The notes beneath the pieces were generated by a model. The model was not told the DNA's origin. It ran no database searches and worked only from the letters and a program-made list of their open reading frames with translations. Shown in pieces: positions 34,810 to 59,307 of a stretch of DNA of 64,000 bases. This DNA is from Terracoccus sp. 273MFTsu3.1 (GTDB lineage Bacteria; Actinomycetota; Actinomycetes; Actinomycetales; Dermatophilaceae): positions 62,001 through 126,000 of the forward strand of contig NZ_KB911825.1 in assembly GCF_000383675.1 (NCBI RefSeq), read 5' to 3'. A program made the position numbers and the translations under genes. Position 1 is the stretch's first letter. Every line of letters starts with the position of its first letter.

Positions 34810-37788
34810 TCAGCGCTCGCCCGCGGCCGCAGCGAGAGCGGTCAGGGCCTGCGTGAAGCACTGCTCGGGCGGCGTCACGAGACCCGCTCCGACCTGGCCC
34901 GTGCCCGCGACGCGGCCGGCCATGCCGGTGTTGATCTGGGGCAGGATGCCGGTCCGCGCGACGGCGGCCACGTCGATGCCGGTCGGCGTGCCGCGGAACT
35001 CGAGGATCGGCACCTGGTAGGCCGTGTGCTCGCCGACGGTGATCTCGTACATCGTCTGGGTGGCCCGCAGCGCGAACGGCACGTCGCCGCCGACGAACTT
35101 CACGATCGCCGGCGCGGCCGCCATCGCGAAGCCGCCGATGCCCGCCGTCTCGGTGATCGCGGAGTCGCCGATGTCGGGGTTCGCGTCGTCCGGGCCGTAG
35201 GACCCGAGGAAGAGGCCCTCGGGCGTGTTGGCCGGGCCGGTGAACCACGCGTCACCCGTGCCCGAGACGCGGATGCCGAAGTCGGTGCCGTTACGGGCCA
35301 TCGTCGTCACGACCGAGGATCCCGGGATGCCATGGGCTGCAAGGGTGCTCAGCTTGCAGGCCGGCATACCGAGGTTGAGGAAGAAGTGCTCGTTGGCGCC
35401 GGAGAAGCGCACCGCCTCCGCGATGTCGGTCGACGACGCGTCGGCCGTGATCATCGTCGGGAGCAGCTCGCGCAGGAGCATGAGGGACCCGGCGCGGTTG
35501 CGGTTGTGGCCCTCGTCGCCCATCTGGAGCATCTGGGCGATGATCGCCTTGACGTCGATCGGGCCCTGCTGCTCGATGCGGGCGCGCACGGCCTGCTGGA
35601 GGATCGGGCCGAGCACGGAGTTCATCCACCGCAGCCGGTCGATGACCTCGGGGCCGTAGGCGCCGTAGCGCAGGACCTTGCCGAGCCCCTCGTTGAGCGA
35701 GCACCACGACGTGTTGTCGTGCACCTCGTCGCGCAGCTCGTAGACCCACATCGACGGGCTGATGACGCCGGCCATCGGGCCGACCGCGTCGCGGTGGTGG
35801 CACGGCTCGAGCGTGACGCCGTCGCCCTTCTCGAGCATCGCCTCGGCCTCCTCGGCCGTGTCGGCGAGCCCCTCGAAGAGCATCGCGCCGATGAGCGCAC
35901 CCTTGAGCGGCCCTGAGGCTCGGGCGAACTCGATGGGCGGCCCAGCATGCAGGAAGGTGCCGCGTTCGAGCCCGAGCACCTCGCGGGCCGGGCGGACGTC
36001 GACGAGGTCGGCACCTGCCGCAGTCATCCGACGCAGCGCCTCGGCGTTGGCGGCGTCGCGGCGGGGGTCGGCCAGGACGCGACCGAGCTCGGCCGCCGTG
36101 CCTGCCATCGGCGGCTGCCACGAGGCCTCCGTCACCGACACCGCCTGCGCCCGAAGGGCGTCCGAGAAGAGCGAGACCCCGGCGGCCGCGACGGTGACGT
36201 CCGCGGCGAGCAGTCCGTGGAGCGGCTCGGCACCGACGTCGGTCACCGTCCCGGCCACGGGGGCGTATGCCGTGTCGCGCCTCGCGCTCTCCGGTGCCGT
36301 CACGTCGTGGCCGAGCAGCTGCAGGGCGCGGCGCGTGGCTGCGGCGTTGGAGAGCAGGACGTCGGCGCCGGCGTCCGCGAGGGCCTTCGCCGACCGGTCG
36401 AGCCCCTGCGGGTCGGAGGTGGTGCCGGTGACCGAGACGACGACGCGCAGGTCACGGCCGGTCGCGGCGGCGGTCTCGCGGGCGGCGCGGACGGCGGCAA
36501 CGAGCTCCGGGGCGGGGTCCGCGTGCGCGCCGTGGCCGAGCACGAGGTCGAGGAGGAGCACGCCGCACGTCGGGTCGGCGGCCTCGACGGCGATGCGGTC
36601 GAGGCGCAGTGACGGGTCGATCATCGGGTGGGCGCGCCCGCGGGTCATCGTGTCGTCGCCGAAGTCGATGACGACGTGGCCCGGGTCGCGCAGGTCCGCG
36701 CCCAGCGCGAGCTCGGCCCGCAGCGGGATGTTGGAGCGGATGTCGCCGAGCACCGGGCCTGCGACGAGCATCGCCTCGTCGGCGAGGGTGCCACCGCAGA
36801 AGAGACCACGCAGCGATCCGGAGGACGTGGGTGCGGATGGGCCCGCTGCCTCCCACGTCGGCCAGACCGGCACGTCCGAGCCCACGGAGGTCAGCACCGA
36901 CTCGACGGCGGCGGTGAGGTCCGGCCGCCCGGCCCCGAGCGTGGCCCAGTGGACCGGCTTGCCCAGCCCGGCGGCATACGCCTCCAGGTCGGCGAGCACC
37001 TCGGGGGCGGGCGGCTTGGAGACGACGACGACCGACGTGGTCTCCGGATCGGCGGCGAGCGCGGCGAGGGCCCGTTTCGTCGAGCGAGCCGCGACGGCGG
37101 ACGACAGGTCGCGGCCCCCCACACCGAGGCAGTGGCTGATGCCGACGCCAGCGGCGTCCAGCAGGCACATGACCTGCTGGGCACCCGTGCCGGACGCCGC
37201 GACGAGGCCGACGGAGCCCGGCCGCACGACGTTGGCGAACCCGAGGGCGACGCCACCGACGACGGCCGTGCCGCAGTCGGGCCCCATGACGAGGACGTCG
37301 GCGTCGGCAGCGGCGTCCTTGAGGCGCACCTCGTCCTCGACCGGGACGTTGTCGGAGAAGACCATGACCGACACCCCGGCGCGGACGGCGTCGAGCGCCT
37401 CGGTGACGGCGTGCTCCCCCGGCACCGAGACGAGCGCGAGGTCGGCGCCCGAGAGGCGGATCGCACCGCCGAGCGTGCGAGCCGTCGGCGCCTCGCCGAA
37501 GCCGGTGGACGAGCCTGCGGCAGAACGGCTCTCGGTGAGCGCAGACTCCAGCGCAGCCTGTCCGGCAGCGATGCCGGCCTCGTCACCGCGGATGGCGACG
37601 AGGAGGTCGTTGGGCGCCGAGTCGGGCACGTCGAAGCCCATGCCACGGATCACCTCGAGGTTGAGCTCGGTCGCCATCGCGACCTGCGCAGCCTCGACGC
37701 CGGGGGCGGCGGCGACGGTGCGCGAGACCTGCATGAGGGTCACGGAGTCGAGGTAGGAGCCGGTTCTCAGCTCGACGTGGTCAGCCAC
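34810..37788 (-). CDS. fused FdrA/YlbE-like protein (AllF-AllG fusion), putative carbamoyltransferase component
   Basis: A 992-residue protein joining two proteins that are separate in E. coli. Residues 1-520 match FdrA (AllF): an N-terminal VELRTGSYLDSVTLMQVS, a CoA-ligase-like region with GPDCGTAVVGG and VAASGTGAQQVM, GVGGRDLS near 223-230, and FCGGTLADEAM near 330-340. Residues about 525-992 match the DUF1116 family (YlbE/AllG): FLHAGPPIEF, EPCHHRDAVGPMAGVISPSMWV, DEGHNRNRAGS and GNGTDFGIRVSGT-type patterns. In E. coli, AllF, AllG and AllH form oxamic transcarbamylase. GTG 37788 has AAGGA 7 nt upstream and overlaps the DUF2877 stop. Confidence 0.85.
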   Translation of the reverse strand: MADHVELRTGSYLDSVTLMQVSRTVAAAPGVEAAQVAMATELNLEVIRGMGFDVPDSAPNDLLVAIRGDEAGIAAGQAALESALTESRSAAGSSTGFGEAPTARTLGGAIRLSGADLALVSVPGEHAVTEALDAVRAGVSVMVFSDNVPVEDEVRLKDAAADADVLVMGPDCGTAVVGGVALGFANVVRPGSVGLVAASGTGAQQVMCLLDAAGVGISHCLGVGGRDLSSAVAARSTKRALAALAADPETTSVVVVSKPPAPEVLADLEAYAAGLGKPVHWATLGAGRPDLTAAVESVLTSVGSDVPVWPTWEAAGPSAPTSSGSLRGLFCGGTLADEAMLVAGPVLGDIRSNIPLRAELALGADLRDPGHVVIDFGDDTMTRGRAHPMIDPSLRLDRIAVEAADPTCGVLLLDLVLGHGAHADPAPELVAAVRAARETAAATGRDLRVVVSVTGTTSDPQGLDRSAKALADAGADVLLSNAAATRRALQLLGHDVTAPESARRDTAYAPVAGTVTDVGAEPLHGLLAADVTVAAAGVSLFSDALRAQAVSVTEASWQPPMAGTAAELGRVLADPRRDAANAEALRRMTAAGADLVDVRPAREVLGLERGTFLHAGPPIEFARASGPLKGALIGAMLFEGLADTAEEAEAMLEKGDGVTLEPCHHRDAVGPMAGVISPSMWVYELRDEVHDNTSWCSLNEGLGKVLRYGAYGPEVIDRLRWMNSVLGPILQQAVRARIEQQGPIDVKAIIAQMLQMGDEGHNRNRAGSLMLLRELLPTMITADASSTDIAEAVRFSGANEHFFLNLGMPACKLSTLAAHGIPGSSVVTTMARNGTDFGIRVSGTGDAWFTGPANTPEGLFLGSYGPDDANPDIGDSAITETAGIGGFAMAAAPAIVKFVGGDVPFALRATQTMYEITVGEHTAYQVPILEFRGTPTGIDVAAVARTGILPQINTGMAGRVAGTGQVGAGLVTPPEQCFTQALTALAAAAGER

Positions 37789-38734
37789 GGTGGAGTCCTT
37801 CCTGGGATTCGGGTCGTGGGGCGTGTCGCGGGTCGGGGCGGGGGACGGACTCGAGCGCGTCGACGGCGCGCAGCGCACCGCTGACGCCCGACAGGAGGTC
37901 GCGGCCGGAGGTGTGCCCGATGGCGAGCACCCGGTCGACGAGGTCACTGACGTCGCTTCCCGCCGATGGGTCAACCAACAGGCCCGACGGCGCAACAGTC
38001 CGGCTCGGGCCCGGTGTGGCGCCGGCCGACCTGTTGGTCGACCCGCCGCCGGAGACCAGGCGGGTCACGAGGCGCGCGACGTCGGGGACGGCATACCCCG
38101 CCCCCGCGGCGACGAGGAGCGCGGCCGACAGGCTCGTCGTCCACGGCAGCACCGTGCGGACGGCGGTGCGCACGGCCGACAGCGCGCGCCGGGCCTGCGG
38201 AGCGTCGACCGCGGCCAGGGTGAGCAGGACGCCGCAGAGCGCGTCGTCGCCGCTCGGGGTCAGGCCGCGCCCGACGCCGACGAGTCCGCGGACCCCCGGG
38301 TCGGTCGAACCACCGGCGAGGGCTGCCGCGGTGAGGTCGTGGGCGAGGTCGCCGAGGACTCCGGGCTCGGGGAGGCCGCCGTCACCGGCGGAGCCGCGCG
38401 GCGCGGGACGCACTCGCGCCGGCCGGAGCAGCCGGGCCGCGACGACGTCGGCGCGCGGCAGACGCACCCGCCCCTCCCCCACGACGACGTGGCCGCCGGG
38501 CTCGACGCCCCAGCGGACCTCAGTCGACGGCAGGGCGAGACGGACGCCGATGGGCAGTGCGACGGCGTCGGAGGCGAGCACGGCGAGGACCCGCTCGTGG
38601 GCGCCGAGATCGAGGTAGAGGCATGTCGGGAAGGCGGCGAGCACCCGGCAGCGCCGTGGGGCGCCGGCCACCTCGCCCGCCACGAGAGGCGACACGGCGG
38701 CCGGCAGCAGCGTCAGGTCGAGACCGTCGTCCAT
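37781..38734 (-). CDS. DUF2877 (AllH-like) subunit
   Basis: A 317-residue DUF2877 protein, the family of YlbF/AllH, third component of oxamic transcarbamylase. Typical motifs are GLVGVGRGLTPSGDDALCG, LPWTTSLSAALL, GAGYAVPDVARL and IGHTSGRDLLSGVSGAL. A low-complexity Gly/Ser/Pro insertion lies at about 225-265. ATG 38734 has GGAGG 11 nt upstream; GTG 38746 is an alternative. It is the first gene of the leftward pair, overlaps the AllF-AllG fusion by 8 bp, and is divergent from pucR. Confidence 0.82.
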   Translation of the reverse strand: MDDGLDLTLLPAAVSPLVAGEVAGAPRRCRVLAAFPTCLYLDLGAHERVLAVLASDAVALPIGVRLALPSTEVRWGVEPGGHVVVGEGRVRLPRADVVAARLLRPARVRPAPRGSAGDGGLPEPGVLGDLAHDLTAAALAGGSTDPGVRGLVGVGRGLTPSGDDALCGVLLTLAAVDAPQARRALSAVRTAVRTVLPWTTSLSAALLVAAGAGYAVPDVARLVTRLVSGGGSTNRSAGATPGPSRTVAPSGLLVDPSAGSDVSDLVDRVLAIGHTSGRDLLSGVSGALRAVDALESVPRPDPRHAPRPESQEGLHRG

Positions 38735-38846: not shown

Positions 38847-38876
38847 TAGGGTGCGCTCATGGTGAAAGTTGCCAAC
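38847..38876 (+). promoter_or_regulatory. leaderless pucR promoter and start-codon-proximal operator-like site
   Basis: TAGGGT (38847-38852) ends 6 nt before the pucR ATG, matching the leaderless pattern. GTTGCCAAC (38868-38876), an imperfect inverted repeat GTTG-N-CAAC, lies 9 bp inside the gene. Related TGCCAA/TTGGCA sites occur before the molybdenum hydroxylase (42426), hyuA (51603 and 51625) and the carbamate kinase region (57125), so it may be an operator shared by the region. Confidence 0.45.
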
Positions 38877-40583
38877 GATCCGGCCCTGCCCGAGGGTGAC
38901 TTGCCAGCCGCCGGGCGCTCCGGCGAGCCCGAGCCCGAGGTCTCCGGCATCTCGCTCCGGCTCATCGCCGGTCTCGCCGCGACGGCGCACGGGGTCGTCC
39001 GCGCCGATCCGGCACGCCTCGACGTCAGCGTCGACAGCACGACGCCGCTCCGCTCCGCGCTGCGCGACGACGCTCCCGCCCGGCTGACCCACCGGCTCGT
39101 GCTCGCCGACGCGGCCGCTCTCGCGGAGGAGGACGGTGACACCGCGTCGCTCGCCGACACCGCCGCCGCGCTCGACACGGCCGGAGCAGCAGGGCTCGTC
39201 GTCTCCGGGCTGTCGGGCAAGCCGCTCGCCGCCCTCGTCAAGGCGGCCGACGCGACGGGCCTGCCGCTCATCGACGTCCCGCTCGACCACATCGCGACCT
39301 TCACGACCGACGTGCTGAGCGCGATGCTCGAGCACCAGACCGCGATCCTGCGCCGCCTCGAGGACGCCGACCGTGCCCTCGTGCAGATCGTCCTCGCCGG
39401 CGGCTCCCTCGACGACCTGTGTGAGCAGGTGGTCGGCTTCCTCGACGGCGCCGTCATGGTGACGACGACCGACGGCCGCGTCATCGCCCGCGCCGGTTCG
39501 CAGCGCGAGCTCGACCACGCGCTGTCCCTCGAGTGCTTCGACCGCACGGGGCGGCTGCTCACCGAGGCCGAGCCGATGGGCCCCCGACCCGACGGCCCGA
39601 CCGCCAACCGCTCTGCCGTGCGCATCGTCGCCGGCCACCTCGACCACGGCGTGCTCATGGCGTTCTGCAGCCACCGCCACCTGACGGTCGACGACGTGCG
39701 CCTGCTCGAGCGGGCCGCGACGGTCGCCGCGCTGGCCATCACCAAGGACCAGGCCGTCTCGGCGGTCGAGAGCAAGTACCGCGCCGAGTTCCTCCGCGAC
39801 GCCCTCGCCGGCCGCGCCGGCTCCCCCGTCGACGCCGTCGCCCACGCCAGCTCGCTCGGCTGGGACATCGACCGGCCCATGGTCGTCGTCGTGGCCGAGA
39901 CCGACGAGGACGACGACCGCTCGACGCGTGACGCCGACGAGGTGCGCTTCCTCCAGCAGCGCTTCGCCCGCGCCTGGACCCACGCCGTGGCGGTGCGCGA
40001 CTCCCGTTCTCCCGTCATGGGATTCAGCCGCGAGGTGGTCGCCCTCATCGGTGTCCCCTCCGGCGCCGAGACCGACCAGGTCATGCGCATCGTCGGCGAG
40101 TACGTCCGGGTCGTGCGGGGCGACGGCGGCGGCGGCCGGCGCAGCTTCTCGGCCGGGGTCTCGCGGGCCATCACCTCGGTTGCCGGGCTGCCCCAGGCAT
40201 ACGACGAGGCGCTCTCGGCGGTCACCGTCGGACGCCAGATGCACGGTGACGGCGCCACGACCCACGTCGACGGCCTCGGCATCTACCGCCTGCTCGCGCT
40301 CATCCCCGACGGCGCCGACCTCCGCCGCTTCGTCGCCGAGTCGCTGCGCGAGCTGGCCACCGACGACTCACCGGAGTACGCCGGCCTGCGCCAGACCCTG
40401 AGCATCCTCATCGACACCAACATGAACGTCGCCGAGACGGCGCGCCTGCTCTTCTTCCACTACAACACGCTGCGCTACCGCATCGGCAAGCTCGAGAAGA
40501 TCCTCGGCCCGTTCACGACCGACCCCGACCTGCGCCTCACCCTCGCCCTCGCGCTCAAGATCCACCAGATGCGCGGCATCTGA
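38859..40583 (+). CDS. PucR-family transcriptional regulator
   Basis: A 574-residue regulator. It has an N-terminal PucR/purine-catabolism domain (about 30-170, SGLSGKPLAALVKAADATGLPLIDVP), a GAF/GGDEF-like central region (about 180-460), and a C-terminal helix-turn-helix with the PucR signature MNVAETARLLFFHYNTLRYR (about 522-541). PucR proteins control purine and related nitrogen-source catabolism, often responding to a pathway intermediate. It is divergent from the AllH/AllF-AllG genes and next to an NCS2 permease, so it is the likely local regulator. The transcript appears leaderless. Confidence 0.9.
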   Translation: MVKVANDPALPEGDLPAAGRSGEPEPEVSGISLRLIAGLAATAHGVVRADPARLDVSVDSTTPLRSALRDDAPARLTHRLVLADAAALAEEDGDTASLADTAAALDTAGAAGLVVSGLSGKPLAALVKAADATGLPLIDVPLDHIATFTTDVLSAMLEHQTAILRRLEDADRALVQIVLAGGSLDDLCEQVVGFLDGAVMVTTTDGRVIARAGSQRELDHALSLECFDRTGRLLTEAEPMGPRPDGPTANRSAVRIVAGHLDHGVLMAFCSHRHLTVDDVRLLERAATVAALAITKDQAVSAVESKYRAEFLRDALAGRAGSPVDAVAHASSLGWDIDRPMVVVVAETDEDDDRSTRDADEVRFLQQRFARAWTHAVAVRDSRSPVMGFSREVVALIGVPSGAETDQVMRIVGEYVRVVRGDGGGGRRSFSAGVSRAITSVAGLPQAYDEALSAVTVGRQMHGDGATTHVDGLGIYRLLALIPDGADLRRFVAESLRELATDDSPEYAGLRQTLSILIDTNMNVAETARLLFFHYNTLRYRIGKLEKILGPFTTDPDLRLTLALALKIHQMRGI

Positions 40584-40838
40584 CCGGCCACCCCTGGCGT
40601 ATGCCGTGTCGCGCGGTTCGAGGTACATCGCACCGTGGCCCGGGCGTGACCCTCCACGGCGGGAGGCGGCGGACCGCCGGGACCGGGGGTGACGGCATAC
40701 GTCATGACGTGCCAGAGGGGCACCCTCGGCGTGTATCAACGTTTGACGAACGCAATGCCCTGCGGTGGGAGTAGTTTTCGCCCATCCCGGAGTGGGACGT
40801 GACCCACATCACCGCATGTGGCAACCATAGGAGTCGGA
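40584..40838. other. 255-bp spacer before the permease gene
   Basis: No gene is visible. The spacer holds two octamer copies in opposite orientations (40599 and 40693), a CGGCGG-A-CCGCCG palindrome between them, a TTGACG at about 40743, and GTGGCAAC at 40818-40825, which resembles the TTGGCA/TGCCAA sites of neighbouring promoters. The permease promoter lies here, but I cannot fix a -10. Confidence 0.55.
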
Positions 40839-42323
40839 ATGGCTTTGGGCTGGAAACTGCACGGGGACGGCAAGACGATGGGCCCCGACGACGTCGTCGC
40901 TCCAGACGAGCGACTGTCGTGGGGCAAGACGATCGGTCTCGGTGCGCAGCACGTCGTCGCGATGTTCGGTGCGACGTTCGTCTTCCCCCTGATCATGGGT
41001 CTCAACGCCCAGCTCGCGATCATGATGAGCGGTATCGCGACGATCTGCTTCCTGCTGATCGTCAACGGAAAGGTCCCGAGCTACCTCGGCACGTCGGCGA
41101 GCTTCGTCGGTGCCGTGGCGGCCATCCGGGCGCAGGGCGGCACGTCCGCCGAGGTCACGGGCGCCATCCTCGTCGCGGGCGTCGTGCTCGCGCTCGTGGG
41201 TGTGGCGATCCACTTCCTCGGCTCGTCGGTGCTGCACAAGGTGCTGCCGCCCGTCGTGACCGGTGCGGTCGTCATGCTCATCGGCTTCAACCTGGCGCCG
41301 GTCGTCGCCAACATCTACTGGCCGCAGGACCAGTGGGTCGCCCTGCTCGTCATGGCGTTCACCATCATCTGCGCGGTCGCCTTCAAGGGGTTCGTGTCGC
41401 GCATCGCGGTCTTCCTCGCCCTGATCTTCGGCTACGTCATCTCGTGGCTCTTCGACAAGGTGTTCGGCCAGATCACGTCCTACGACGCGGGCGCCGGCAA
41501 GGTCACGACTCACTTCCGCACGAACTTCGACAACCTCGCCAGCCAGCCGTGGTTCGGCCTGCCGCCGTCGACGACGACCGGCGCCGACGGCAAGGAGCTC
41601 GTCGGCATCCACGCGCCGTCCTTCTCGGTCGCCGCGATCCTCCTCGTGCTCCCGGCCGTCATCGCGCTCATCGCGGAGAACACCGGCCACGTCAAGGCCG
41701 TCGCCGAGATGACGAAGACCGACCTCGACCCCTACATGGGTCGCGCCATCGCCGCGGACGGCATCGGCACGGTCATCGCGAGCTCCGTCGGTGGCTCGCC
41801 GACGACGACGTACGCCGAGAACATCGGCGTCATGGCGGCCACCCGCGTCTACTCGACGGCCGCCTACTACGTGGCCGCGATCGTCGCCATCGTCTTCGGC
41901 CTCTCGCCGAAGTTCGGGGCGCTCGTCGCGTCGGTCCCCGGCGGCGTCCTCGGCGGCATCACGGTCGTGCTCTACGGCATGATCGGCCTGCTCGGCGCGA
42001 AGATCTGGAAGGAGAACGGGGTCGACTTCGGCAACCCGATCAACCTCGTCCCGGTCGCGGCCGGCATCGTCATCGGCATCGGCAACGTGTCGCTCGTCTT
42101 CACGTCCGACTTCACGCTCGGCGGCATCGCCCTCGGCACCATCGTCGCGGTCGTCGCCTACCACGTCGCCCGCGCCGTGGCGCCGGCCGACCTGCGTGAA
42201 CGCGCCGACGCCGCAGGAGGCACGATGATCTCGCTCGGCGAGCGCGAGGGTGACTACGGCGACGCCGACGGCGTCGACGACCTCTACCAGGACGCGCCGA
42301 ACGGTCCCGACCGGCGTCACTGA
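40839..42323 (+). CDS. NCS2 uracil/xanthine permease, UraA-like
   Basis: A 494-residue transporter of the NCS2 (UapA/UraA) family with about 14 membrane segments. The substrate-binding glutamates are both present: IAENTGHVKAV (TM8 region) and TTTYAENIGVMAATRVYS (TM10 region). The second motif is the UraA/RutG/PyrP uracil branch rather than the xanthine branch. It would import uracil or a similar base by proton symport. ATG 40839 has AGGAG at 5 nt spacing. The acidic C-terminal tail (about 35 residues) is longer than in UraA. The neighbouring Mo-hydroxylase and barbiturase-type genes fit a pyrimidine substrate. Confidence 0.88.
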   Translation: MALGWKLHGDGKTMGPDDVVAPDERLSWGKTIGLGAQHVVAMFGATFVFPLIMGLNAQLAIMMSGIATICFLLIVNGKVPSYLGTSASFVGAVAAIRAQGGTSAEVTGAILVAGVVLALVGVAIHFLGSSVLHKVLPPVVTGAVVMLIGFNLAPVVANIYWPQDQWVALLVMAFTIICAVAFKGFVSRIAVFLALIFGYVISWLFDKVFGQITSYDAGAGKVTTHFRTNFDNLASQPWFGLPPSTTTGADGKELVGIHAPSFSVAAILLVLPAVIALIAENTGHVKAVAEMTKTDLDPYMGRAIAADGIGTVIASSVGGSPTTTYAENIGVMAATRVYSTAAYYVAAIVAIVFGLSPKFGALVASVPGGVLGGITVVLYGMIGLLGAKIWKENGVDFGNPINLVPVAAGIVIGIGNVSLVFTSDFTLGGIALGTIVAVVAYHVARAVAPADLRERADAAGGTMISLGEREGDYGDADGVDDLYQDAPNGPDRRH

Positions 42324-42501: not shown

Positions 42502-43473
42502 GTGAAGCCCGCCCCCTTCGAGCACCACGCACCGCTCACCGTCGAGCAGGCCGTCTCCGTCCTCACCGAGGTCGGGCACGACGGCAAGGTCCTCGCGGGC
42601 GGCCAGAGTCTCATCCCGATCCTCAACATGCGGCTGGCGTCGCCGGCGCACCTCGTCGACATCAACCGCGTCGCCGGCCTCGACACCGTCGAGGTGACCG
42701 CCGAGGCCGTTCGCGTCGGCGCCCTCGTGCGGCACGCCGGTCTCGAGCGCTCCGAGAGTGCGTATGCCGCCCTCCCCCTCCTGCGCCAGGCGCTCGTCAA
42801 CGTCGCCCACCCGGCCATCCGCAACCGCGGCACGACGGTCGGCTCCATCGCCCACGCCGACGCGGCCGGCGAGATGCCCGCGATCCTCGCCCTGACCGAC
42901 GGGGTCGTCGAGGTGGCAGGCCCGTCCGGGACGCGCGAGATCGCGTGGTCCGACTTCTTCCTCGGCGCCCTCGAGACGTCGCTCGCGGCCGAGGAGCTCG
43001 CCGTCGCGGTGCGCTTCGGCCGCTTCCCGGCCGGCACCGGCACGGCCTTCACCGAGGCGGCCCGACGTCACGGCGACTACGCCATGGCCGGCGTCGGGGT
43101 AGCCCTGACGGTCGCCGACGGCGTCGTCTCCGGCGCTCGGGCCTCGTTCGTCTCCGTCACCGACGTGCCCTCGGTCCTCGACCTCGGACCGGTCCTCGAC
43201 GGGGTCGAGCCGGGCTCGGGCGAGTGGGACGCCGCGCTCGACACCGCCGCCGAGGCGGTGCGCGGGCACGTCGACCCCGAGGGCGACATCCACGCGAGCG
43301 CCGACTACCGCCGCATGCTCGTCACCGAGCTGACCCGCCGGGTCCTCCCCCAGGCGGCCGACCGTGCCACGACCCCCGCACCGAACGCGGCGTTCGATCG
43401 CGGAAGTGCTGTGACAACACTGAGTTCGACATCGAGCACTGCGTTCGGTGGACAAGGAGCCAGCCATGACTGA
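42502..43473 (+). CDS. molybdenum hydroxylase FAD subunit (CoxM-like)
   Basis: The 323-residue medium subunit carries FAD and passes electrons from the iron-sulfur subunit to the acceptor. The FAD-binding motifs AGGQSLIPILNMR (about 33-45) and TTVGSIAHADAAGEMP (about 112-127) are present. The second is one Gly shorter than the usual TVGGSIAHADP. The last 30 residues are a low-complexity tail. GTG 42502 follows AGGCAGGA at about 9 nt. The gene overlaps the iron-sulfur subunit gene by 8 bp, and the order M-S-L matches cox-type operons. No nearby XdhC or Mo-cofactor gene is visible. Confidence 0.92.
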   Translation: MKPAPFEHHAPLTVEQAVSVLTEVGHDGKVLAGGQSLIPILNMRLASPAHLVDINRVAGLDTVEVTAEAVRVGALVRHAGLERSESAYAALPLLRQALVNVAHPAIRNRGTTVGSIAHADAAGEMPAILALTDGVVEVAGPSGTREIAWSDFFLGALETSLAAEELAVAVRFGRFPAGTGTAFTEAARRHGDYAMAGVGVALTVADGVVSGARASFVSVTDVPSVLDLGPVLDGVEPGSGEWDAALDTAAEAVRGHVDPEGDIHASADYRRMLVTELTRRVLPQAADRATTPAPNAAFDRGSAVTTLSSTSSTAFGGQGASHD

Positions 43474-44008
43474 CACGACCCCCGCCACCGAGACGCTCCA
43501 CGACGTGACGGTCTCCGTGAACGGCGTACGCCACTCGGCCGCCGTGCCCGCCCGCCGGCTGCTCTCGGACTTCGTGCGCCACGACCTCGAGCTGACCGGA
43601 ACCCACGTCGGCTGCGAGCACGGCGTGTGCGGGGCCTGCACCGTCCTCGTCGACGGGCAGCCGATGCGCTCGTGCCTCATGTTCGCCGTCACGGCGCAGG
43701 ACCACGCGATCACCACCGTCGAGGGGCTCTGCTCGGCGCCCGACGCCCGCACCGTCCCGACCGGCGAGTCGATGAACCCGGTCCAGCAGGCCTTCGCCGA
43801 GTGCCACGGTCTCCAGTGCGGTTTCTGCACCCCGGGCTTCCTCACGACCGTGACGGCCTACCTCGAGGAGAACTCGTCACCGACGAGCGAGCAGGCACGA
43901 GAGGCGATCTCGGGCAACCTCTGCCGCTGCACCGGCTACCAGAACATCGTCAAGAGCGTCCTGCGCGCCGCCGAGATCAAGGCCGAGCGGGCGGAGGAGC
44001 ACGCGTGA
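43466..44008 (+). CDS. molybdenum hydroxylase [2Fe-2S] subunit (CoxS-like)
   Basis: A 180-residue small subunit with two [2Fe-2S] centres. The plant-type cluster uses Cys50, Cys55, Cys58 and Cys70 (CEHGVCGAC...C). The second uses Cys118, Cys121, Cys153 and Cys155 (CGFC and CRC). ATG 43466 has a perfect AAGGAG with 6 nt spacing. It overlaps both neighbours (8 bp with the FAD subunit gene, GTGA with the large subunit gene), so the three subunits are made together. Confidence 0.95.
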   Translation: MTDTTPATETLHDVTVSVNGVRHSAAVPARRLLSDFVRHDLELTGTHVGCEHGVCGACTVLVDGQPMRSCLMFAVTAQDHAITTVEGLCSAPDARTVPTGESMNPVQQAFAECHGLQCGFCTPGFLTTVTAYLEENSSPTSEQAREAISGNLCRCTGYQNIVKSVLRAAEIKAERAEEHA

Positions 44009-51054: not shown

Positions 51055-51491
51055 CGGGTGCCGCCCGCGGTGCGCAGGAAGGCGTCCATCTCGTCGGTGT
51101 TCGCGGGTGCCTGCTCCATGACCTGGCGCACGTGGATCGGCTGCCGGGTGGGCACGCCGCCGCGGCCCGGTACGGCTGACATGAGCGAGGCGATCTCGAG
51201 GGCGCGCTCCTCCGAGTCGACCTCGACGACCTGGAAGCCGGCGAGCCACTCCTTGAACTCCTGGAACGGTCCGTCGGTGACGACCGGCGCGGCACCGTCG
51301 GACCGGACGATCTTGGCGAGGTCGGGGCCCGTGAGGATCGTGGACGAGACCAGCTCGCCGTTGGCCTCGAGCTCGCCGACGAGCCTCTCGTAGTAGTCGA
51401 GGTGGGCCTGGACCTCCTCCGGGGTCCAGTCGGACATCGGGGCCGGGTCGTCGCCGGCCTGGAAGTCCACGCCGATGAGGTACTTCGCCAT
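51051..51491 (-). CDS. YCII/DGPF-domain protein, ECF42 partner
   Basis: A 146-residue DGPF-domain protein (MAKYLIGVDFQAG, TPEEVQAHLDYYERLVGELEANGE, VVTDGPFQEFKEWLAGFQVVEVDS). The domain's DGPF motif is at about 87-90. It is one of the targets or partners typically linked with ECF42 sigma factors; biochemical role unknown. ATG 51491 has AAGGAG about 10 nt upstream. It overlaps the sigma-factor gene by four bases and is divergent from hyuA. Confidence 0.88.
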   Translation of the reverse strand: MAKYLIGVDFQAGDDPAPMSDWTPEEVQAHLDYYERLVGELEANGELVSSTILTGPDLAKIVRSDGAAPVVTDGPFQEFKEWLAGFQVVEVDSEERALEIASLMSAVPGRGGVPTRQPIHVRQVMEQAPANTDEMDAFLRTAGGTR

Positions 51492-51678: not shown

Positions 51679-53814
51679 ATGACAGCAGGCACCTCCGCAC
51701 GCCGCCGGATCCGCATCGGCATCGACACCGGTGGCACGTTCACCGACGTCGTCGCGCTCGACGAGGACTCGGGCGAGCTCGTCACGACGAAGACGCCCTC
51801 GACGCCGAGCAACCCCGCCGACGGCTTCCTCGCCGGCGTCCGCAAGGTCCTCGACCTCATGGACGCGAGCGGTGACGACATCAGCGCCGTCTCGCACGGC
51901 ACGACCGTCGCGACGAACAAGCTCCTCGAGGGCAAGGTCGAGGCGCTCGGCTTCATCACGACGGAGGGCTACGAGTTCATCCTCGAGATCGCCCGCCAGG
52001 CGGTCCCCGACGGCTACGGCAACTCCTACTTCTGGGTCAAGCCCGCCCGCATCGTGCCGGCCGACCACGTCAAGACGGTCGGCGGCCGGTTCGACTTCGA
52101 GGGCAACGAGATCCGCCCGTTCGACGAGGAGCGCGCCGTCACGGTCGCCCGCTGGTTCAAGGACCGTGGCATCACGACGATCGGCGTCTGCTTCCTGCAC
52201 TCCTACGCCGACGACAGCCACGAGCTCGCGATGCGTGAGGTGCTCCGTCGCGAGCACCCGGACGCCGTCGTCTCGATCAGCTCGGAGGTGCTGCGCGAGT
52301 ACCGCGAGTACGAACGATCCATGACGACCCTCGTCGACGCCGCGGTCAAGCCCAACGTGTCCCGCTACGTCGCGAACATCCACCACCGGCTCGACGAGTT
52401 CGTCGGCAGCACCGAGAAGCTGCCCTTCTACATCATGAAGTCCAACGGCGGCGTGCTCTCGGCCGACGAGGTCGTGCACCAGCCGATCACGACGGTCCTC
52501 TCGGGCCCGGCCGCGGGAGCGCTCGGTGCCGGCCTCATCGCCGGCCGTGCCGGCTTCGACAAGGTCCTGACGTGCGACGGCGGCGGCACGTCGACCGACG
52601 TGTCCGTCGTCCTCGCGGGCGAGCCGACCCTGACGACCGAGGGTACCGTCGGCGCCTACCCGAGCAAGATCCCGATGATCGACGTCGTCACCGTCGGGGC
52701 GGGCGGTGGCTCCATCGCGTGGATCTCCCCCGAGGGCTCGCTCAAGGTCGGCCCTCAGTCCGCGGGCGCCGACCCCGGTCCCCTCTGCTACGCCAAGGGG
52801 GGCACCGAGCCGACGATCACCGACGCCCACGTGACGCTCGGACGCATCCCCCCGCACCTGCTCGGCGGCGAGATCCCCCTCGACGTCGAGGCGGCCCGCA
52901 CGGGCGTCGCCGCGCTCGCGGACCGCCTCGGGCTCGACTTCGAGCGCTGCGCGACCGGGATCCTCGAGATCTCCGCGTGGAACCAGGCCAATGCCCTGCG
53001 CCAGGTCTCGGTCAAGCGGGGCCTCGACGTGCGCGACTTCATGCTCGCCACGTTCGGCGGATCGGGCTCGCTGCTCGCATGCCGGCTCGTCGACATCCTC
53101 GGCCTCGCCGGCGTCGTCGTGCCGCAGAACCCCGGCAACGTCTCCGCCTTCGGCCTGCTCACCGTCGACGTCAAGAACGACTACGTCCAGACGTCCGTGG
53201 CGCGCCACCACGCGCTCGACCACGCCGCCGTGCAGAAGACGTTCGACGACCTCACGGCCAAGGCCGCGAGCGCCCTCGACGGCGAGGGTTTCGCGCGCGA
53301 GAGCCACCGCTACACGCGCACCGTAGACCTGCGCTACTTCGGCCAGGCCTACGAGGTCCGCGTCGCCGCGCCCGAGGGAGACGTCGACGAGGCGTATGCC
53401 GCGGGCGTCGCCTCACGCTTCCACGACGAGCACCGCGCGCTCTACGGCTACGACTTCCGGGGCGACCCGACCCAGCAGGTCGAGTGGGTCAACCTCCGCG
53501 TCACGGGTGTCGGCCCCATCACCCGCCCCGAGCTGCGCGACCTCGCCCCGTCGGAGGGCGCGGCCGACGTCCGCGAGCGGGCCCACCGCAGCGTCCGCCC
53601 GGTGTGCTTCGACGCCGACGCCGGCTACGTCGACACGGACGTCTGGTGGCGCCCCGACCTGCTCGCGGGCGACACGGTCGAGGGTCCAGCGGTGATCGAG
53701 GAGTTCGGGTCGACGGTCCCGGTCCACCCCGGCTTCGTCGTCCGTGTCGACACGCTCGGCAACCTCGTCATCACCCGGTCCACCGCCGCCCCGACGACCA
53801 CCCCGGAGGCCTGA
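51679..53814 (+). CDS. hyuA: HyuA-type hydantoinase/oxoprolinase subunit A
   Basis: A 711-residue ATP-dependent subunit of the N-methylhydantoinase/5-oxoprolinase family. The phosphate-binding motif GIDTGGTFTDVV is at 14-25 and SHGTTVATNKLLEGK at 72-86. CDGGGTSTDVS is the actin-like nucleotide-binding motif near 299-309, and GGGSIAW follows. With HyuB it would open a cyclic imide or lactam at the expense of ATP. The substrate could be a hydantoin, a pyrimidine-derived ring or another amide. Start is ATG 51679; the hyuB ATG is 1 bp past its stop. Confidence 0.92.
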   Translation: MTAGTSARRRIRIGIDTGGTFTDVVALDEDSGELVTTKTPSTPSNPADGFLAGVRKVLDLMDASGDDISAVSHGTTVATNKLLEGKVEALGFITTEGYEFILEIARQAVPDGYGNSYFWVKPARIVPADHVKTVGGRFDFEGNEIRPFDEERAVTVARWFKDRGITTIGVCFLHSYADDSHELAMREVLRREHPDAVVSISSEVLREYREYERSMTTLVDAAVKPNVSRYVANIHHRLDEFVGSTEKLPFYIMKSNGGVLSADEVVHQPITTVLSGPAAGALGAGLIAGRAGFDKVLTCDGGGTSTDVSVVLAGEPTLTTEGTVGAYPSKIPMIDVVTVGAGGGSIAWISPEGSLKVGPQSAGADPGPLCYAKGGTEPTITDAHVTLGRIPPHLLGGEIPLDVEAARTGVAALADRLGLDFERCATGILEISAWNQANALRQVSVKRGLDVRDFMLATFGGSGSLLACRLVDILGLAGVVVPQNPGNVSAFGLLTVDVKNDYVQTSVARHHALDHAAVQKTFDDLTAKAASALDGEGFARESHRYTRTVDLRYFGQAYEVRVAAPEGDVDEAYAAGVASRFHDEHRALYGYDFRGDPTQQVEWVNLRVTGVGPITRPELRDLAPSEGAADVRERAHRSVRPVCFDADAGYVDTDVWWRPDLLAGDTVEGPAVIEEFGSTVPVHPGFVVRVDTLGNLVITRSTAAPTTTPEA

Positions 53815-53815: not shown

Positions 53816-55858
53816 ATGTGCTTCTCCTGCCAGACCGCGGCCACCCGCCTCGCCCCCGTCGACGCCGCCACCGGGTCGCAGCAGCCCGCGCACGTGGCCG
53901 GCCCCGCAGCCGGCCACGACGGCGCTGCGGTCAACCCTGCGGGGCTCCCCACGGCATACGAGCACGGCAACCGCCTGACGCCCGAGGGCACGACGGTCGA
54001 CCCGATCCTCGTCGAGATCGTCGAGGGCACGCTCGCGAGCGTCGAGATGGAGGTCGAGACGGCCATCGCCCGCACGTCGCGCTCGCCCATGATCCGCGAC
54101 GCGCACGACTTCCGCGCCGGCATCCACGACCGCCAGCTGCGCAAGCTGACGGGCCGCTCGTACAGCGCGCTCGTGCACCCGATCGCCCGCGACTTCCCGC
54201 TCGCCGAGATGAGCGAGGGCGACGTCTTCTTCCACAACGACGTCTACGAGTCCGAGGGCGGCATCGGCCACCTGCCCGACCTCTGCGTCACCGTGCCGGT
54301 CTTCTCCGGCGGCGAGGTCGTCGCCTTCGTCCAGGCGTTCGGTCACCACGACGACATCGGTGGCGCCGTGCCCGGCTCGATGCCGAGCAACGCGCAGACG
54401 GTCTTCGAGGAGGGCCTCTCGGTCCCGCCGATCAAGCTGTGGGACCAGGGAGTTCCCAACCAGGCGGCGCTGCGCATCATGACGCGCAACAGCCGCATGC
54501 CCGACAGCCTCGCCGCGGACCTCGACGCCGAGTGCTCGGCCTGCCTCATGGGCGCCCGGCGCCTCGGCGAGCTCTTCGAGCGCTACGGCCGCGACACGAT
54601 CGAGGCCGCCTTCGACGCGATCCTGGACAAGACGACCGAGACCTACCGCCGCGAGATCCTCAGCAAGATCCCCGACGGCACGTACGTCTGGGAGGACTAC
54701 GCCGAGCACGACGGGGTCGACGAGCCCAAGCTGCACACCCAGCGGATCACCCTGACCAAGCAGTCGAGCGGCGGTCCCGGCCCCGGTGACGGTGGCCCCA
54801 AGCTCGTCATCGACTTCACCGGCACGGCGCCGCAGGCCAAGGGCCCGATCAACCACTGCGGCGACTACGTCGGCGGCAACTTCCTCAAGAAGTGGCTCGC
54901 GCCCATCCTGCGCAACCTGGCCGACACCCCCGAGCGGATGGCCGAGCTCGACGTCAACGAGGGCATCGTGCCGCTCATCGAGATGAGGTTCCCGGAGAAG
55001 GGCACGCTCCTCACGCCCATCTACCCCGCGCCGACGAACGCCCGCACCTTCGTCATCCTGCGCCTGCTCGGCGTCCTCGCCGGCGTCGTCGCCAAGGCCG
55101 TCGACGGCAAGATGCCGGCCGACCAGGAGACGATCCGCTACACCGGCGTCTACGGCAAGGACCGCGACGGCAACGACTACCTCATGCGCGAGGTGCTCGG
55201 CGGAGGCTCGGGTGGCCGCTACTACGCCGACGGCGAGGACACGATCCACGTCGTCCCCGACAGCCGCAACCTGCCGACCGAGTTCACCGAGAGCCGCTTC
55301 CCCTTCATCGTCGAGCGCCTCGGTCTCGCCGTCGACTCCGGTGGCGCCGGCCGGCACCGCGGCGGCCTCGGCTACGAGAAGCACATCCGGATGCTCAAGG
55401 ACGCCCACTTCATGTCAATTGCCGACCGGTCGATCCTCGCCTGCTGGGGCGTCAAGGGCGGCAAGGCCGGTCGTCCCTTCGAGGTCACGGTCGACGTGGG
55501 CGGTCCGGAGGAGCGCACCGTCGACGCCCTCGCCGACGCCGAGGTCGTCAAGGCCGGCCAGGTCATCCGCATCCGCACCACGGGTGGCGGCGGCTGGGGC
55601 GACCCGCTCGACCGGCCCTACGAGGAGGTCGAGCGCGACCTGCGCTGGGGCAAGGTCTCCTTCGACGGCGTGCGCCGCGACTACGGCGTCGTCGCGACCG
55701 GCGACCTCGACGAGCCCGTCATCGACCGCGCCGCGTCGGACGCGTTGCGTGAGCAGCTGCGCGGCGACCGCGCGGACGAGCAGCCCTTCTTCGACCGCGG
55801 CCCCGGCTACGTGACGCTCGCCGCGGGACGGACTGCGGCGGATGTCGACTGGGTCTGA
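53816..55858 (+). CDS. hyuB: HyuB-type hydantoinase/oxoprolinase subunit B
   Basis: A 680-residue subunit B. The family core starts near residue 60 (TVDPILVEIVEGTLASVEME) and continues with SPMIRDAHDFRAGI, GDVFFHNDVYESEGGIGHLPD, DFTGTAPQAKGPINH and SGGAGRHRGGLGYEKHI. The catalytic pair is spread over the chain and cannot be pinned down. About 55 residues precede the core, which is longer than in typical HyuB. They begin with a CxxC motif (MCFSC) and are otherwise Ala/Pro-rich. It is immediately downstream of hyuA and 3 bp from the NmrA-like gene. Confidence 0.92.
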   Translation: MCFSCQTAATRLAPVDAATGSQQPAHVAGPAAGHDGAAVNPAGLPTAYEHGNRLTPEGTTVDPILVEIVEGTLASVEMEVETAIARTSRSPMIRDAHDFRAGIHDRQLRKLTGRSYSALVHPIARDFPLAEMSEGDVFFHNDVYESEGGIGHLPDLCVTVPVFSGGEVVAFVQAFGHHDDIGGAVPGSMPSNAQTVFEEGLSVPPIKLWDQGVPNQAALRIMTRNSRMPDSLAADLDAECSACLMGARRLGELFERYGRDTIEAAFDAILDKTTETYRREILSKIPDGTYVWEDYAEHDGVDEPKLHTQRITLTKQSSGGPGPGDGGPKLVIDFTGTAPQAKGPINHCGDYVGGNFLKKWLAPILRNLADTPERMAELDVNEGIVPLIEMRFPEKGTLLTPIYPAPTNARTFVILRLLGVLAGVVAKAVDGKMPADQETIRYTGVYGKDRDGNDYLMREVLGGGSGGRYYADGEDTIHVVPDSRNLPTEFTESRFPFIVERLGLAVDSGGAGRHRGGLGYEKHIRMLKDAHFMSIADRSILACWGVKGGKAGRPFEVTVDVGGPEERTVDALADAEVVKAGQVIRIRTTGGGGWGDPLDRPYEEVERDLRWGKVSFDGVRRDYGVVATGDLDEPVIDRAASDALREQLRGDRADEQPFFDRGPGYVTLAAGRTAADVDWV

Positions 55859-55861
55859 GCG

Positions 55862-56698
55862 GTGACGACGGTCCTCGTCATCGGCGCGGCCGGCAAGACC
55901 GGCCGCGCCGTCACGCGCTCCCTCACGTCACACGGCGTCACCGTGCGCGCTGCCGTGCGATCGCCGGAACGGTCCGAGACGGCGTATGCCGCTGGGGCCC
56001 GGTCGATCTCGGTCGTTGACCTCGAGTCCGGGCTCGGTCTCGACGACGCCTTCGACGGGGTCGACGCGGTCTATCACCTCGCGCCCAACGTCCACCCCGA
56101 CGAGGTCGCCATCGCCGACCGCGTCGCCAGTGCTGCACTGCGGGCCGGCGTGACCCGCTTCGTGTTCCACTCCGTGCTGCACCCGCACGACTCGTCGATG
56201 CCGCACCATCTGCGCAAGGCGGAGGCCGAGAAGGTCGTGCGCAGCCACCTGCCCGGGGCCACGGTGCTCCGCCCGGCGGCATACCACCAGAACCTCCTCG
56301 ACGCTGCCCACGCCGGTCGGCTCGCGGTCCCCTACTCGCTCGACACCCCGTTCACGAACGTCGACCTCGACGACGTGGCCGAGGTCGCGGCGACCGTGCT
56401 GACCCGCCCCGGCCACGAGGGCGTCACCCATGACCTCGCCGGGCCGGAGGTGCTCTCGGTGCGCGAGCAGGCGCACGTCGCCGCCGCCGTGCTCGGGCAC
56501 CCCGTCGAGGCCCTGCGCGTGGAGCTCGCGGAGTGGGTCGCCGGACCCGGCGCGTCGCTCACGGCCCAGGCGCGCGACGACCTGCTGGCGATGTTCGCCT
56601 CCTACGACCGCGGCGGCCTCGTGGGCGAGGCCGCTCCCCTGCGTCGGCTGCTCGGCCGCGAGCCGCGCCCGTGGGCCGGCGTCCTGACCCGCACCTGA
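55862..56698 (+). CDS. NmrA-like NAD(P)-binding protein
   Basis: A 278-residue short-chain-dehydrogenase-like protein of the NmrA group: TTVLVIGAAGKTGRAVTRSL at the N-terminus, HLAPNVHPDEV, VFHSVLHPHDSSMPHHLRKAEAEK and LRPAAYHQNL. No classical YxxxK catalytic pair is obvious, so it may bind NAD(P) as a sensor or a reductase of unknown substrate. GTG 55862 is 3 bp after the hyuB stop, so it is probably co-transcribed with hyuA and hyuB. Confidence 0.82.
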   Translation: MTTVLVIGAAGKTGRAVTRSLTSHGVTVRAAVRSPERSETAYAAGARSISVVDLESGLGLDDAFDGVDAVYHLAPNVHPDEVAIADRVASAALRAGVTRFVFHSVLHPHDSSMPHHLRKAEAEKVVRSHLPGATVLRPAAYHQNLLDAAHAGRLAVPYSLDTPFTNVDLDDVAEVAATVLTRPGHEGVTHDLAGPEVLSVREQAHVAAAVLGHPVEALRVELAEWVAGPGASLTAQARDDLLAMFASYDRGGLVGEAAPLRRLLGREPRPWAGVLTRT

Positions 56699-57197: not shown

Positions 57198-57221
57198 ATG
57201 ACGACCGAGGACGCGCCGTGA
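57198..57221 (+). CDS. seven-codon leader ORF coupled to carbamate kinase
   Basis: ATG 57198 begins MTTEDAP and stops at TGA 57219-57221, which overlaps the carbamate kinase GTG (GTGA at 57218-57221). It contains the only Shine-Dalgarno for the kinase (GAGGA, about 7 nt before the GTG). A leaderless transcript starting at this ATG would need the leader ORF to bring ribosomes to the kinase. It could be an artefact of a short chance ORF, but the four-base overlap argues otherwise. Confidence 0.4.
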   Translation: MTTEDAP

Positions 57222-58165
57222 GGGTGCTCGTGGCGCTGGGCGGCAACGCCATGACCGGGCCCGACGGCAGCGCGACACCCCAGGCCCAGCGCGCGGCGAT
57301 CGCCACGGCGAGCCACCACCTCGCCGAGCTCGTCGCCGCCGGGCACGAGGTCGTCATCACCCACGGCAACGGACCGCAGGTCGGCAACCTCCTCGTCAAG
57401 AACGAGCTCGCCGCGAGCGTCGTGCCGCCGGTCCCGCTCGACTGGTGCGGCGCGCAGACGCAGGGGACCATCGGCTTCACGCTGCTCGACACCCTCGAGG
57501 CCGCGTTCGCCGCCCGTGGCGTCGAGCGGCGCGTCGCCGCGATCATCACCCGCACGCTCGTCGACGCCGACGACCCCGGCTTCACCCACCCGACCAAGCC
57601 GATCGGGCGCTTCCTCCCGCGCGACCAGGCGCAGACGCTCATCGACCACGGCGAGCGCTGGGAGGACCGCGGCGAGAAGGGGTGGCGCCGTGTCGTCGCC
57701 TCGCCCGAGCCCGTCGAGGTCCTCGAGACGCACACCCTCCACACGCTCCTCGCAGCCGGTTACGTCGTCGTCACGGCCGGGGGCGGTGGCATCCCCGTCG
57801 TCCGCGCCGACGACGGCAGCGTCCAGGGCGTCGAGGCCGTCATCGACAAGGACCTCACCGCGGCGCTGCTCGCGCGCGCCGTCGACGCCGACGTCCTCGT
57901 CATCGCCACCGACGTCGCGCACGCCGTCGCCGGCTGGGGCACCCCCGACGCCCACGACATCGAGCACGTCACGCTCGAGCAGATGGAGGCGTATGCCGCC
58001 GCCGGCCACTTCGCGTCCGGCTCGATGGGGCCCAAGGTCGAGGCCGCCCTGCGCTTCGTCCGGTCGGGCGGTTCACGATCGATCATCACGGCCCTCGACC
58101 AGCTCGCCACCGCCGTCGACGGCCACGTCGGCACCGTCATCGAAAACCCTGAAAGAGAAAGGTGA
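57218..58165 (+). CDS. arcC: carbamate kinase
   Basis: A 315-residue amino-acid-kinase-fold enzyme that reversibly makes ATP from carbamoyl phosphate and ADP. Motifs: VALGGNAM at 5-12, [12 protein letters not shown] at 48-59, PTKPIG near 126-131, [10 protein letters not shown] near 187-196 and [12 protein letters not shown]. In catabolic settings it recovers one ATP from a carbamoyl group. In E. coli an equivalent kinase (AllK) works with AllFGH on oxalurate. Here the AllF-AllG/AllH genes are in the same region but 20 kb away. GTG 57218 overlaps the leader ORF; its stop overlaps the first GTG of the next gene. Confidence 0.95.
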
Positions 58166-58170
58166 TTCAC

Positions 58171-59307
58171 GTGCCCGAAGCCATTGAGGTGCGCAAGGTC
58201 CCCATCCACTCGGTCGCCGACGCGTCGGAGCTCGCCACGCTCATCGACGACGGCGTCATGGAGGCGAGCCGCGTCGTCGCCATCATCGGCAAGACCGAGG
58301 GCAACGGCGGCGTCAACGACTACACGCGCATCATCGCCGACCGCGCCTTCCGTGAGGTCCTCGTCGAGAAGGGCGCCCCGGCCGACCAGGTCAAGCAGGT
58401 CCCGATCGTGTGGTCCGGTGGCACGGACGGCATCATCAGTCCGCACGCGACGATCTTCGCCACCGTCCCGGCCGACCGGGCCGAGCAGTCCGACGAGCCC
58501 AGGCTGACCGTCGGCTTCGCGATGAGCGAGCCGATCAAGCCCGAGGAGATCGGCTACGTCGCGATGGTCCAGAAGGTCGCCGACGCCGTGAAGGTCGCCA
58601 TGGAGCGTGCCGGCATCACCGACCCGGCGGACGTCCACTACGTCCAGACCAAGACACCGCTCCTGACGATCCACACCATCCGCGACGCGAAGTCCCGGGG
58701 TCACGAGGTCTGGACCGAGCACACGCACGAGTCGATGGACCTCTCGAACGGGACCACCGGCCTCGGCATCGCCGTCGCCCTCGGTGAGATCGAGATGCCG
58801 ACCGACGCCGACATCATGCACGACCGGTCGCTCTTCTCGTCGGTCGCCTCCTGCAGCTCGGGCGTCGAGCTCGACCAGGCGCAGGTCGTCGTCGTCGGCA
58901 ACACCACGGGCATCGGCGGCCGCTACCGCATCGGCCACTCGGTCATGCAGGACGCGCTCGACGCCGACGGCGTGTGGGGCGCGATCAAGGACGCCGGGCT
59001 GGACCTGCCGGAGCGCCCGCACAGCAGCGACATCCAGGGCCGGCTCGTCAACGTCTTCCTCAAGTGCGAGGTGAGCCAGGACGGCACCGTGCACGGTCGA
59101 CGCAACGCGATGCTCGACGACTCCGACGTGCACTGGCACCGCCAGATCAAGTCGGCCGTCGGCGGCGTCACCGCCTCCGTGACGGGTGACCCGGCCGTCT
59201 TCGTCTCGGTGTCGGCGGCGCACCAGGGCCCCGACGGTGGCGGTCCGGTCGCCGCGATCGTCGACCTCGGCGAGGGCGAGCCCACCGGCTACCGCTGGAC
59301 CCGCTGA
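58171..59307 (+). CDS. ring-opening amidohydrolase, barbiturase/cyanuric acid hydrolase family
   Basis: A 378-residue member of the AtzD/barbiturase family, which cleaves cyclic ureides. The three family Lys/Ser regions are present: Lys41 in [13 protein letters not shown] with Ser82 in [12 protein letters not shown], Lys161 in [10 protein letters not shown] with Ser227 in ASCSSGVEL, and a third region ending in [17 protein letters not shown]. Barbiturase opens barbiturate to ureidomalonate; cyanuric acid hydrolase opens cyanurate to carboxybiuret. I favour barbiturase because of the UraA-like permease and Mo-hydroxylase, but the sequence alone does not settle it. GTG 58171 has AGAAAGG 8 nt upstream. 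Confidence 0.88.

Follow-up and report, generated by a model that had tools for sequence, protein, structure and literature searches.

A barbiturase-linked, AllFGH-type carbamoyltransferase suggests an ATP-recovering route of uracil breakdown in actinobacteria

On what substrate does an AllFGH-type carbamoyltransferase act when its genes are linked to a gene for barbiturase? The question is raised by positions 34810–59307 of a 64 kb stretch of DNA (the window) on contig C6 of the 4.94 Mb genome of Terracoccus sp. 273MFTsu3.1, where a gene cluster combines a barbiturase, a carbamate kinase (CK), a fused AllF-AllG protein, an AllH homologue, a nucleobase permease, a Cox-type molybdenum hydroxylase and a nitrilase-fold amidase. 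The original prediction for this DNA read these genes as an oxidative pyrimidine pathway in which ureidomalonate is split with phosphate and ATP is recovered. Our analysis supports that interpretation; the AllFGH reaction itself is one that we infer. Profile matches place every gene that the prediction named within the cluster, together with a hydantoinase-type pair, HyuA and HyuB, that was absent from it. Soil actinobacteria seem to break uracil down by an undescribed route, with phosphorolysis of the ring-opened intermediate by a relative of an E. coli allantoin-pathway enzyme and recovery of ATP, and we place the probability that the cluster serves uracil uptake and oxidative catabolism with recovery of one ATP at roughly 0.82.

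The ring-opening enzyme is encoded at 58162–59307 on the plus strand (PF09663, Amido_AtzD_TrzD, E = 5.8e-142), and its nearest relatives in genome_contigs come mostly from Terrabacter. Its best solved match is the barbiturase 5hwe (E = 8.8e-201), presumably the Rhodococcus erythropolis enzyme, with cyanuric acid hydrolases following at 1.5e-95 and weaker. Within the AtzD/Bar family, barbiturases (group VI) have Asn, His, Lys, Val and Ser/Ala at AtzD positions 195, 321, 325, 345 and 346, and cyanuric acid hydrolases have Arg195, Thr321, Arg325, Gly345 and Gly346 (PMC3758960). The window's protein has N, H, K, V and S at these positions, five of five being of the barbiturase type and none of the cyanuric acid hydrolase type. 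It also passes the NCBIfam equivalog model for cyanuric acid amidohydrolase, with 468 bits against a cutoff of 360, so automatic annotation may mislead here, and this match is what favors a cyanuric acid hydrolase as the ring opener, in a cluster for the degradation of cyanuric acid or biuret. Against the residues and the best solved match, and with AllG found in 0/4 of the class genomes that have only weaker AtzD homologues, that explanation retains next to no probability, and a cyanuric acid pathway was rejected on the specificity residues. Barbiturase and cyanuric acid hydrolase are each described as either failing to act on the other's substrate or being inhibited by it (PMC4051656, PMC3758960). 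The original prediction had treated specificity for cyanuric acid only as fatal to it, and the residues contradict such a specificity; its placing of the ring opener in the barbiturase family also holds. Overall, the sequence comparison strongly supports the predicted identity of the ring opener as a barbiturase. A plasmid search for barbiturase gave 132 records, of which 130 were below 60% identity.

At the opposite end of the cluster, on the minus strand, lie the proposed subunits of a ureidomalonate-phosphorolysing carbamoyltransferase. The AllF-AllG fusion (34810–37788; 992 aa, with a GTG start) matches PF06545 AllG (E = 1.3e-96), PF00549 Ligase_CoA (E = 7.9e-31) and the PDB entries 3clq and 3dmy, and its AllG and AllF parts are 47% and 37% identical to their E. 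coli counterparts. The gene for AllH (37781–38734, minus strand; PF11392, E = 1.6e-19) overlaps the AllF-AllG start by 8 bases, and its product is 32% identical to E. coli AllH over 165 aa. CK (57218–58165, start approximate, plus strand) belongs to the ArcC/AllK family, its TIGR00746 arcC score of 360.2 bits being above the cutoff of 358.25. It is 43% identical to E. coli AllK, and its gene ends in a stop codon that overlaps the start of the barbiturase gene.

Comparison of genomes revealed that AllG and barbiturase occur together. Barbiturase, counted at identities of at least 70% with weaker matches left out, was found in 69 genomes of a class sample of 345, and AllG in 79; both were present in 67, barbiturase only in 2, AllG only in 12 and neither in 264. 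The co-occurrence survey that the original prediction proposed is therefore strongly positive, as AllG was present in 67 of the 69 barbiturase genomes versus 12 of the 276 others (Fisher 4e-56, kinship ignored). Counted by genus, 31 had both, 2 barbiturase only, 9 AllG only and 85 neither, that is, AllG in 31/33 genera with barbiturase versus 9/94 without it. A family sample of 99 genomes had AllG (PF06545) in 41, an AtzD/barbiturase protein over the cutoff in 38 and both in 37, the sub-cutoff PF09663 match of one genome (G085) being left out; one of these 37 (G018) is no true example because its AtzD-type protein is only 41% identical and its AllG divergent. When both genes were on the same contig they were always on opposite strands, in 43/43 pairs of the class sample (the distance is within 50 kb in 35 and 1.7 Mb in one) and in all 30 pairs of the family sample (28 at 18–43 kb, two more than 2 Mb apart). 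The gathering of the cluster genes is more than chance.

The homology of all three subunits to the E. coli enzyme, at the identities given above, favors an alternative in which AllFGH acts on oxalurate from an allantoin- or hydantoin-type source, for example through ring opening by HyuAB, and has only its locus in common with barbiturase. The presence of that hydantoinase-type pair in the cluster also fits this alternative. Supply of oxalurate by the allantoin pathway was rejected, as the AllD model TIGR03175 was over its cutoff in none of the 99 family genomes (weaker matches at E ≤ 1e-20 occurred in 19) and had no match at E ≤ 1e-20 in the window's genome. As a positive control, one control genome, presumably that of E. 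coli, an AllD carrier, was over the cutoff.

The phylogeny of AllG also argues against oxalurate. In a tree of 55 chosen sequences, one clade (100/97) holds the 35 sampled copies that we took as barbiturase-associated in barbiturase genomes, plus 3 from incomplete genomes; E. coli AllG and 16 others fall outside it, and a long-branch warning, which includes E. coli AllG, makes relations beyond this 38-row clade unsure. Two genomes (G016 and G064) have an AllFG with the barbiturase cluster that falls inside the clade and a second AllFG locus elsewhere that falls outside it, and a divergent second AllG in G052 is likewise outside. The AllG-only genomes of the class sample vary in kind. One (G121, 80% complete) has AllFG, PucR and UraA arranged as in the window, on an 8 kb contig that stops there; another (G204, also 80% complete) has AllG on a 4.7 kb contig. 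Five (G101, G254, G212, G262 and G381) have a different AllFG (40–51% identity) beside a CK of 41–43% identity, and the other five (G125, G245, G306, G314 and G383) have a divergent AllG, with no CK match in the stretch read. With barbiturase-associated AllG in a clade of its own and AllG tracking barbiturase across the class sample, we regard action on oxalurate as quite unlikely. As a separate observation, six loci (L124, L126, L127, L255, L261 and L262) carry a divergent AllG type that is 36–39% identical to the window's and has a different gene neighborhood, and no CK match was found in the stretch read.

The loci of relatives, for which we used the best 80 of 529 found in genome_contigs with flanks of up to 10 kb, indicate how closely the parts hold together. 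In 79 of these 80 loci CK is the gene immediately before barbiturase, and in the remaining one (L042) it is further off. HyuA or HyuB was seen in 56 and CoxL in 23, counts that are lower bounds because many loci stop short of those genes, and AllFGH was seen in only 1 of the 80, as the usual gap of 18–43 kb exceeds the 10 kb flank. In compact clusters (G016, G022), AllFG and AllH are on one strand and PucR-UraA-Cox-Nit-HyuA-HyuB-CK-barbiturase on the other. Twenty-five loci showed both CoxG and HyuA; 5 of them have a nitrilase-fold gene in the slot between the two, 19 have an amidase-signature gene there and one has neither, and such alternation of two unrelated amidases is what would be expected of a malonamate amidase. 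A CoA-transferase family III protein occurs in 45 of the 80 loci and an AccA/AccD-like carboxyltransferase in 20, and in G022 the two precede CK. Homologues of both, at 58–69% identity, adjoin each other in the window's genome at 664 kb of contig C1. The pair is probably a malonate sink accompanying many clusters; Pseudomonas malonate decarboxylase is said to have related subunits.

A further indication of the AllFGH substrate comes from Rhodococcus-type genomes, in which the genes beside barbiturase are exchanged. Ureidomalonase was reportedly found in R. erythropolis. The family f10, taken as Mycobacteriaceae, was located through MspA, which we assume to be a marker of that family and which occurred in 5 of 98 genomes, all of f10. 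A search of 401 f10 genomes found barbiturase in 22, five of them 99–100% identical to 5hwe, and 20 of the 22 loci were covered (G573 and G684 are outside the count); none of the relatives of G198 and G229 was above 85% identity to 5hwe. In 18 of the 20 loci an amidase-signature gene directly follows barbiturase and CK is not beside it; the one in G520 (L171, about 2025–3518) is a PF01425 protein. Among 66 class loci (from the 69 barbiturase genomes, excluding G000, G032 and G072), CK is beside barbiturase in 56 and a barbiturase-adjacent amidase in none. No locus among these 20 and 66, nor any of the 80 compared, has both beside barbiturase. AllFG and CK gave no match within 40–60 kb around barbiturase in five f10 genomes (G507, G653, G640, G622 and G520), nor in the shorter stretches of 13 other f10 loci. 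Genomes resembling R. erythropolis retain UraA and the Cox genes, and the CoA-transferase/carboxyltransferase pair is present in G653 and G520 and HyuAB in G520.

Within f10, G450 has AllFGH, CK, HyuAB and the CoA-transferase pair in place of the adjacent amidase, and in a tree of 47 barbiturases (20 from Mycobacteriaceae, 26 chosen others and the window's) its barbiturase is nested in the f10 clade (100/96), so that it was the module, and not barbiturase, that was exchanged. On the simplest reading, AllFGH, CK and an amidase on the one hand, and the adjacent amidase on the other, are alternative consumers of the barbiturase product. The amidase-signature protein beside barbiturase in Rhodococcus-type genomes is a candidate for ureidomalonase. 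No amidase-signature gene is among the annotated genes around barbiturase in the window, the stretch to which this check was limited. The candidate ureidomalonase is 39–42% identical to the amidase-signature protein of the cluster slot, and we infer that the two cleave the same malonyl-amide bond, in ureidomalonate and malonamate respectively. In G520 the 40 kb covered include HyuAB but neither AllFGH nor CK; HyuAB is therefore not obligatorily linked to AllFGH, which tells further against oxalurate as the substrate. The exchange also bears on another possibility, that AllFGH cleaves a related ureido acid (methylureidomalonate from thymine, or the product of HyuAB) and ureidomalonate is handled otherwise. 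Such a role would suit HyuAB, a recurrent pair lacking an assigned step. The swap, however, trades AllFGH and CK for one amidase at the barbiturase locus while other genes remain, which points to the barbiturase product as the AllFGH substrate, and we consider a related ureido acid unlikely.

We propose the following sequence of steps, with ureidomalonate as the substrate of AllFGH. Uracil would be imported by an NCS2 permease of the UraA/RutG type (40818–42323, plus strand; PF00860, 5.8e-78), whose best NCBIfam match is RutG at 351 bits, below the cutoff of 759. The Cox-type molybdenum hydroxylase, a candidate uracil dehydrogenase, would then form barbiturate. Its genes, all on the plus strand, encode a CoxM-like FAD subunit (42502–43473, start approximate; FAD_binding_5, 3.9e-39), a CoxS-like [2Fe-2S] subunit (43466–44008, candidate start; Fer2_2, 5.6e-29) and a CoxL-like molybdopterin subunit (44005–46455; MoCoBD_1/2; NF040766, 1543 bits, over cutoff). 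The active-site loop of form I CO dehydrogenase is AYxCSFR. CoxL was rejected as such an enzyme since it has PYRGAGRPQ in that stretch and lacks CSFR, though the NF040766 family is named for aerobic CO dehydrogenase. A CoxG-like protein follows (46500–47111, plus strand; PF06240, 5.2e-22); the match begins at profile position 13, and the gene probably begins a little upstream of 46500. Barbiturase would convert barbiturate to ureidomalonate, a step that its residue signature and homology strongly support. It is likely, from the gene context, that AllF-AllG and AllH convert ureidomalonate and phosphate to malonamate and carbamoyl phosphate, from which CK, by the function of its family, would form ATP from ADP with release of ammonia and CO2. 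Malonamate would be hydrolyzed to malonate by the nitrilase-fold amidase (47114–48037, plus strand; 307 aa; PF00795, 7.2e-48), in which Glu50, Lys124 and Cys160 fit what we take to be the nitrilase triad, or by the amidase-signature enzyme in other clusters. The CoA-transferase and carboxyltransferase-like pair would probably activate and decarboxylate malonate to acetyl-CoA. The net gain would be one ATP per uracil, with ammonia and CO2 in place of urea, and AllFGH, CK and the amidase would substitute for the urea-forming ureidomalonase of Rhodococcus. We think it probable that a distinct AllFGH subclass acts as a malonamate carbamoyltransferase (ureidomalonate phosphorylase) with CK and an amidase in a widespread, ATP-recovering actinobacterial uracil pathway, where it replaces the ureidomalonase of the adjacent-amidase type.

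Several points weigh against this scheme, in addition to the cyanuric acid amidohydrolase model that the ring opener passes. The co-occurrence statistics ignore phylogeny, and the alternative amidase was seen in only one bacterial family, so the swap represents few independent events. The absence of AllFGH from Rhodococcus-type genomes covers 40–60 kb in five genomes and up to 17 kb in 13, and one f10 genome (G485) shows neither module in the stretch read. CK is not beside barbiturase in 10 of the 66 class loci; two of these (G112 and G105) are contig ends, and in others barbiturase is apart from the cluster. G112 also lacks AllG; the contig that ends at its barbiturase is 5.4 kb long. G300 has barbiturase with neither AllG in the genome nor the alternative amidase beside it, and the only AllG of G148 is low-scoring (202 bits). 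HyuA/HyuB accompanies both kinds of module but is given no step by the scheme, and we know of no biochemistry for the barbiturase-associated AllFGH subclass.

The remaining genes of the cluster include a PucR-family regulator (38859–40583, plus strand; HTH_30, 3e-18; GGDEF_2, 8.4e-16) that is divergently oriented from allH; alignment of nine upstream regions revealed no convincing operator shared between the two genes. HyuA (hydantoinase/oxoprolinase A; 51679–53814; PF01968, 4.2e-88) and HyuB (53816–55858, candidate start; PF02538, 3.8e-136) are on the plus strand, and that they open a thymine-derived ring is a guess. They are followed, on the same strand, by an NmrA-like NAD(P)-binding protein (55862–56698; PF05368, 3.7e-26), whose gene is part of some relatives' clusters but not all. 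The plus-strand series is interrupted at 48097–51491 by minus-strand genes for an RDD protein, an unassigned open reading frame (ORF), a DUF6596 sigma factor and a YCII protein, the last two at 49834–51491. A YCII protein of 37–41% identity also lies near the second AllFGH and CK locus of G016 and G064 (L121, L122), and the ORF beside it is similar by eye to the window's neighbor, with no assignment from searches.

On one side of the cluster, at 24775–28008, are a malate/lactate dehydrogenase-family gene and a folD-like gene, with other genes intervening; on the other, at 59395–61843, are purH and a purN-like gene, and purH is downstream of barbiturase in many relatives too. The product of 61882–63966 contains several immunoglobulin-type domains (I-set, 1.6e-24), an apparently unusual feature in an actinobacterium. 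A Wzz-type protein lies at 2434–4101, and the G+C content at 8001–20000 is 0.62–0.66, versus 0.70–0.76 in the rest of the window; this region was perhaps acquired.

If the proposed reaction is correct, pyrimidine breakdown gains a phosphorolytic step with ATP recovery, of a kind described until now for purines, and the AllFGH family has more than one substrate. It would also supply a biological context for those barbiturases that score above the cutoff of a cyanuric acid hydrolase model, and would name a gene for ureidomalonase, for which no assigned sequence was found in the literature examined. We recognized no description of AllFGH with barbiturase or ureidomalonate in the open-licence literature, to which the search was mostly confined. 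The E. coli oxamic transcarbamylase AllFGH (EC 2.1.3.5) was assayed in reverse, with oxamate and carbamoyl phosphate, and the available excerpts of that paper name no other substrates (PMC11326118). In nitrifiers, allFGH-allK beside triuret genes has been read as oxalurate degradation (PMC12625717).

The cluster resembles E. coli AllFGH/AllK in having the same three subunit families and a CK (PMC11326118), and the same chemistry is proposed for it. It differs in that AllF and AllG are fused, AllG is in a separate clade and AllD was not found; E. coli AllFGH adjoins allantoin genes, whereas the window's is linked to barbiturase, and the proposed substrate, ureidomalonate, is one CH2 longer than oxalurate. 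Phosphorolytic cleavage of ureido compounds in purine breakdown has been described for E. coli YgeW/YqeA, in reductive urate degradation (PMC12507026), and for the Rubrobacter UGTCase (PMC4016543), both, like the cluster, with a carbamate kinase gene alongside. Those enzymes belong to the ATCase/OTCase superfamily, to which AllFGH is reported to have no similarity (PMC11326118), and AllFGH here would serve pyrimidine breakdown. Another near counterpart is the oxidative pathway whose barbiturase comes from R. erythropolis JCM 3132; there, malonate and urea are the products of barbiturase and ureidomalonase (PMC3758960). The cluster shares with that pathway of uracil dehydrogenase, barbiturase and ureidomalonase the same barbiturase residue signature and, with the R. 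erythropolis-like genomes G507, G653 and G520, UraA and Cox-type genes. It has AllFGH and CK instead of the barbiturase-adjacent amidase, and carbamoyl phosphate and ATP, rather than urea, would therefore be expected as its products.

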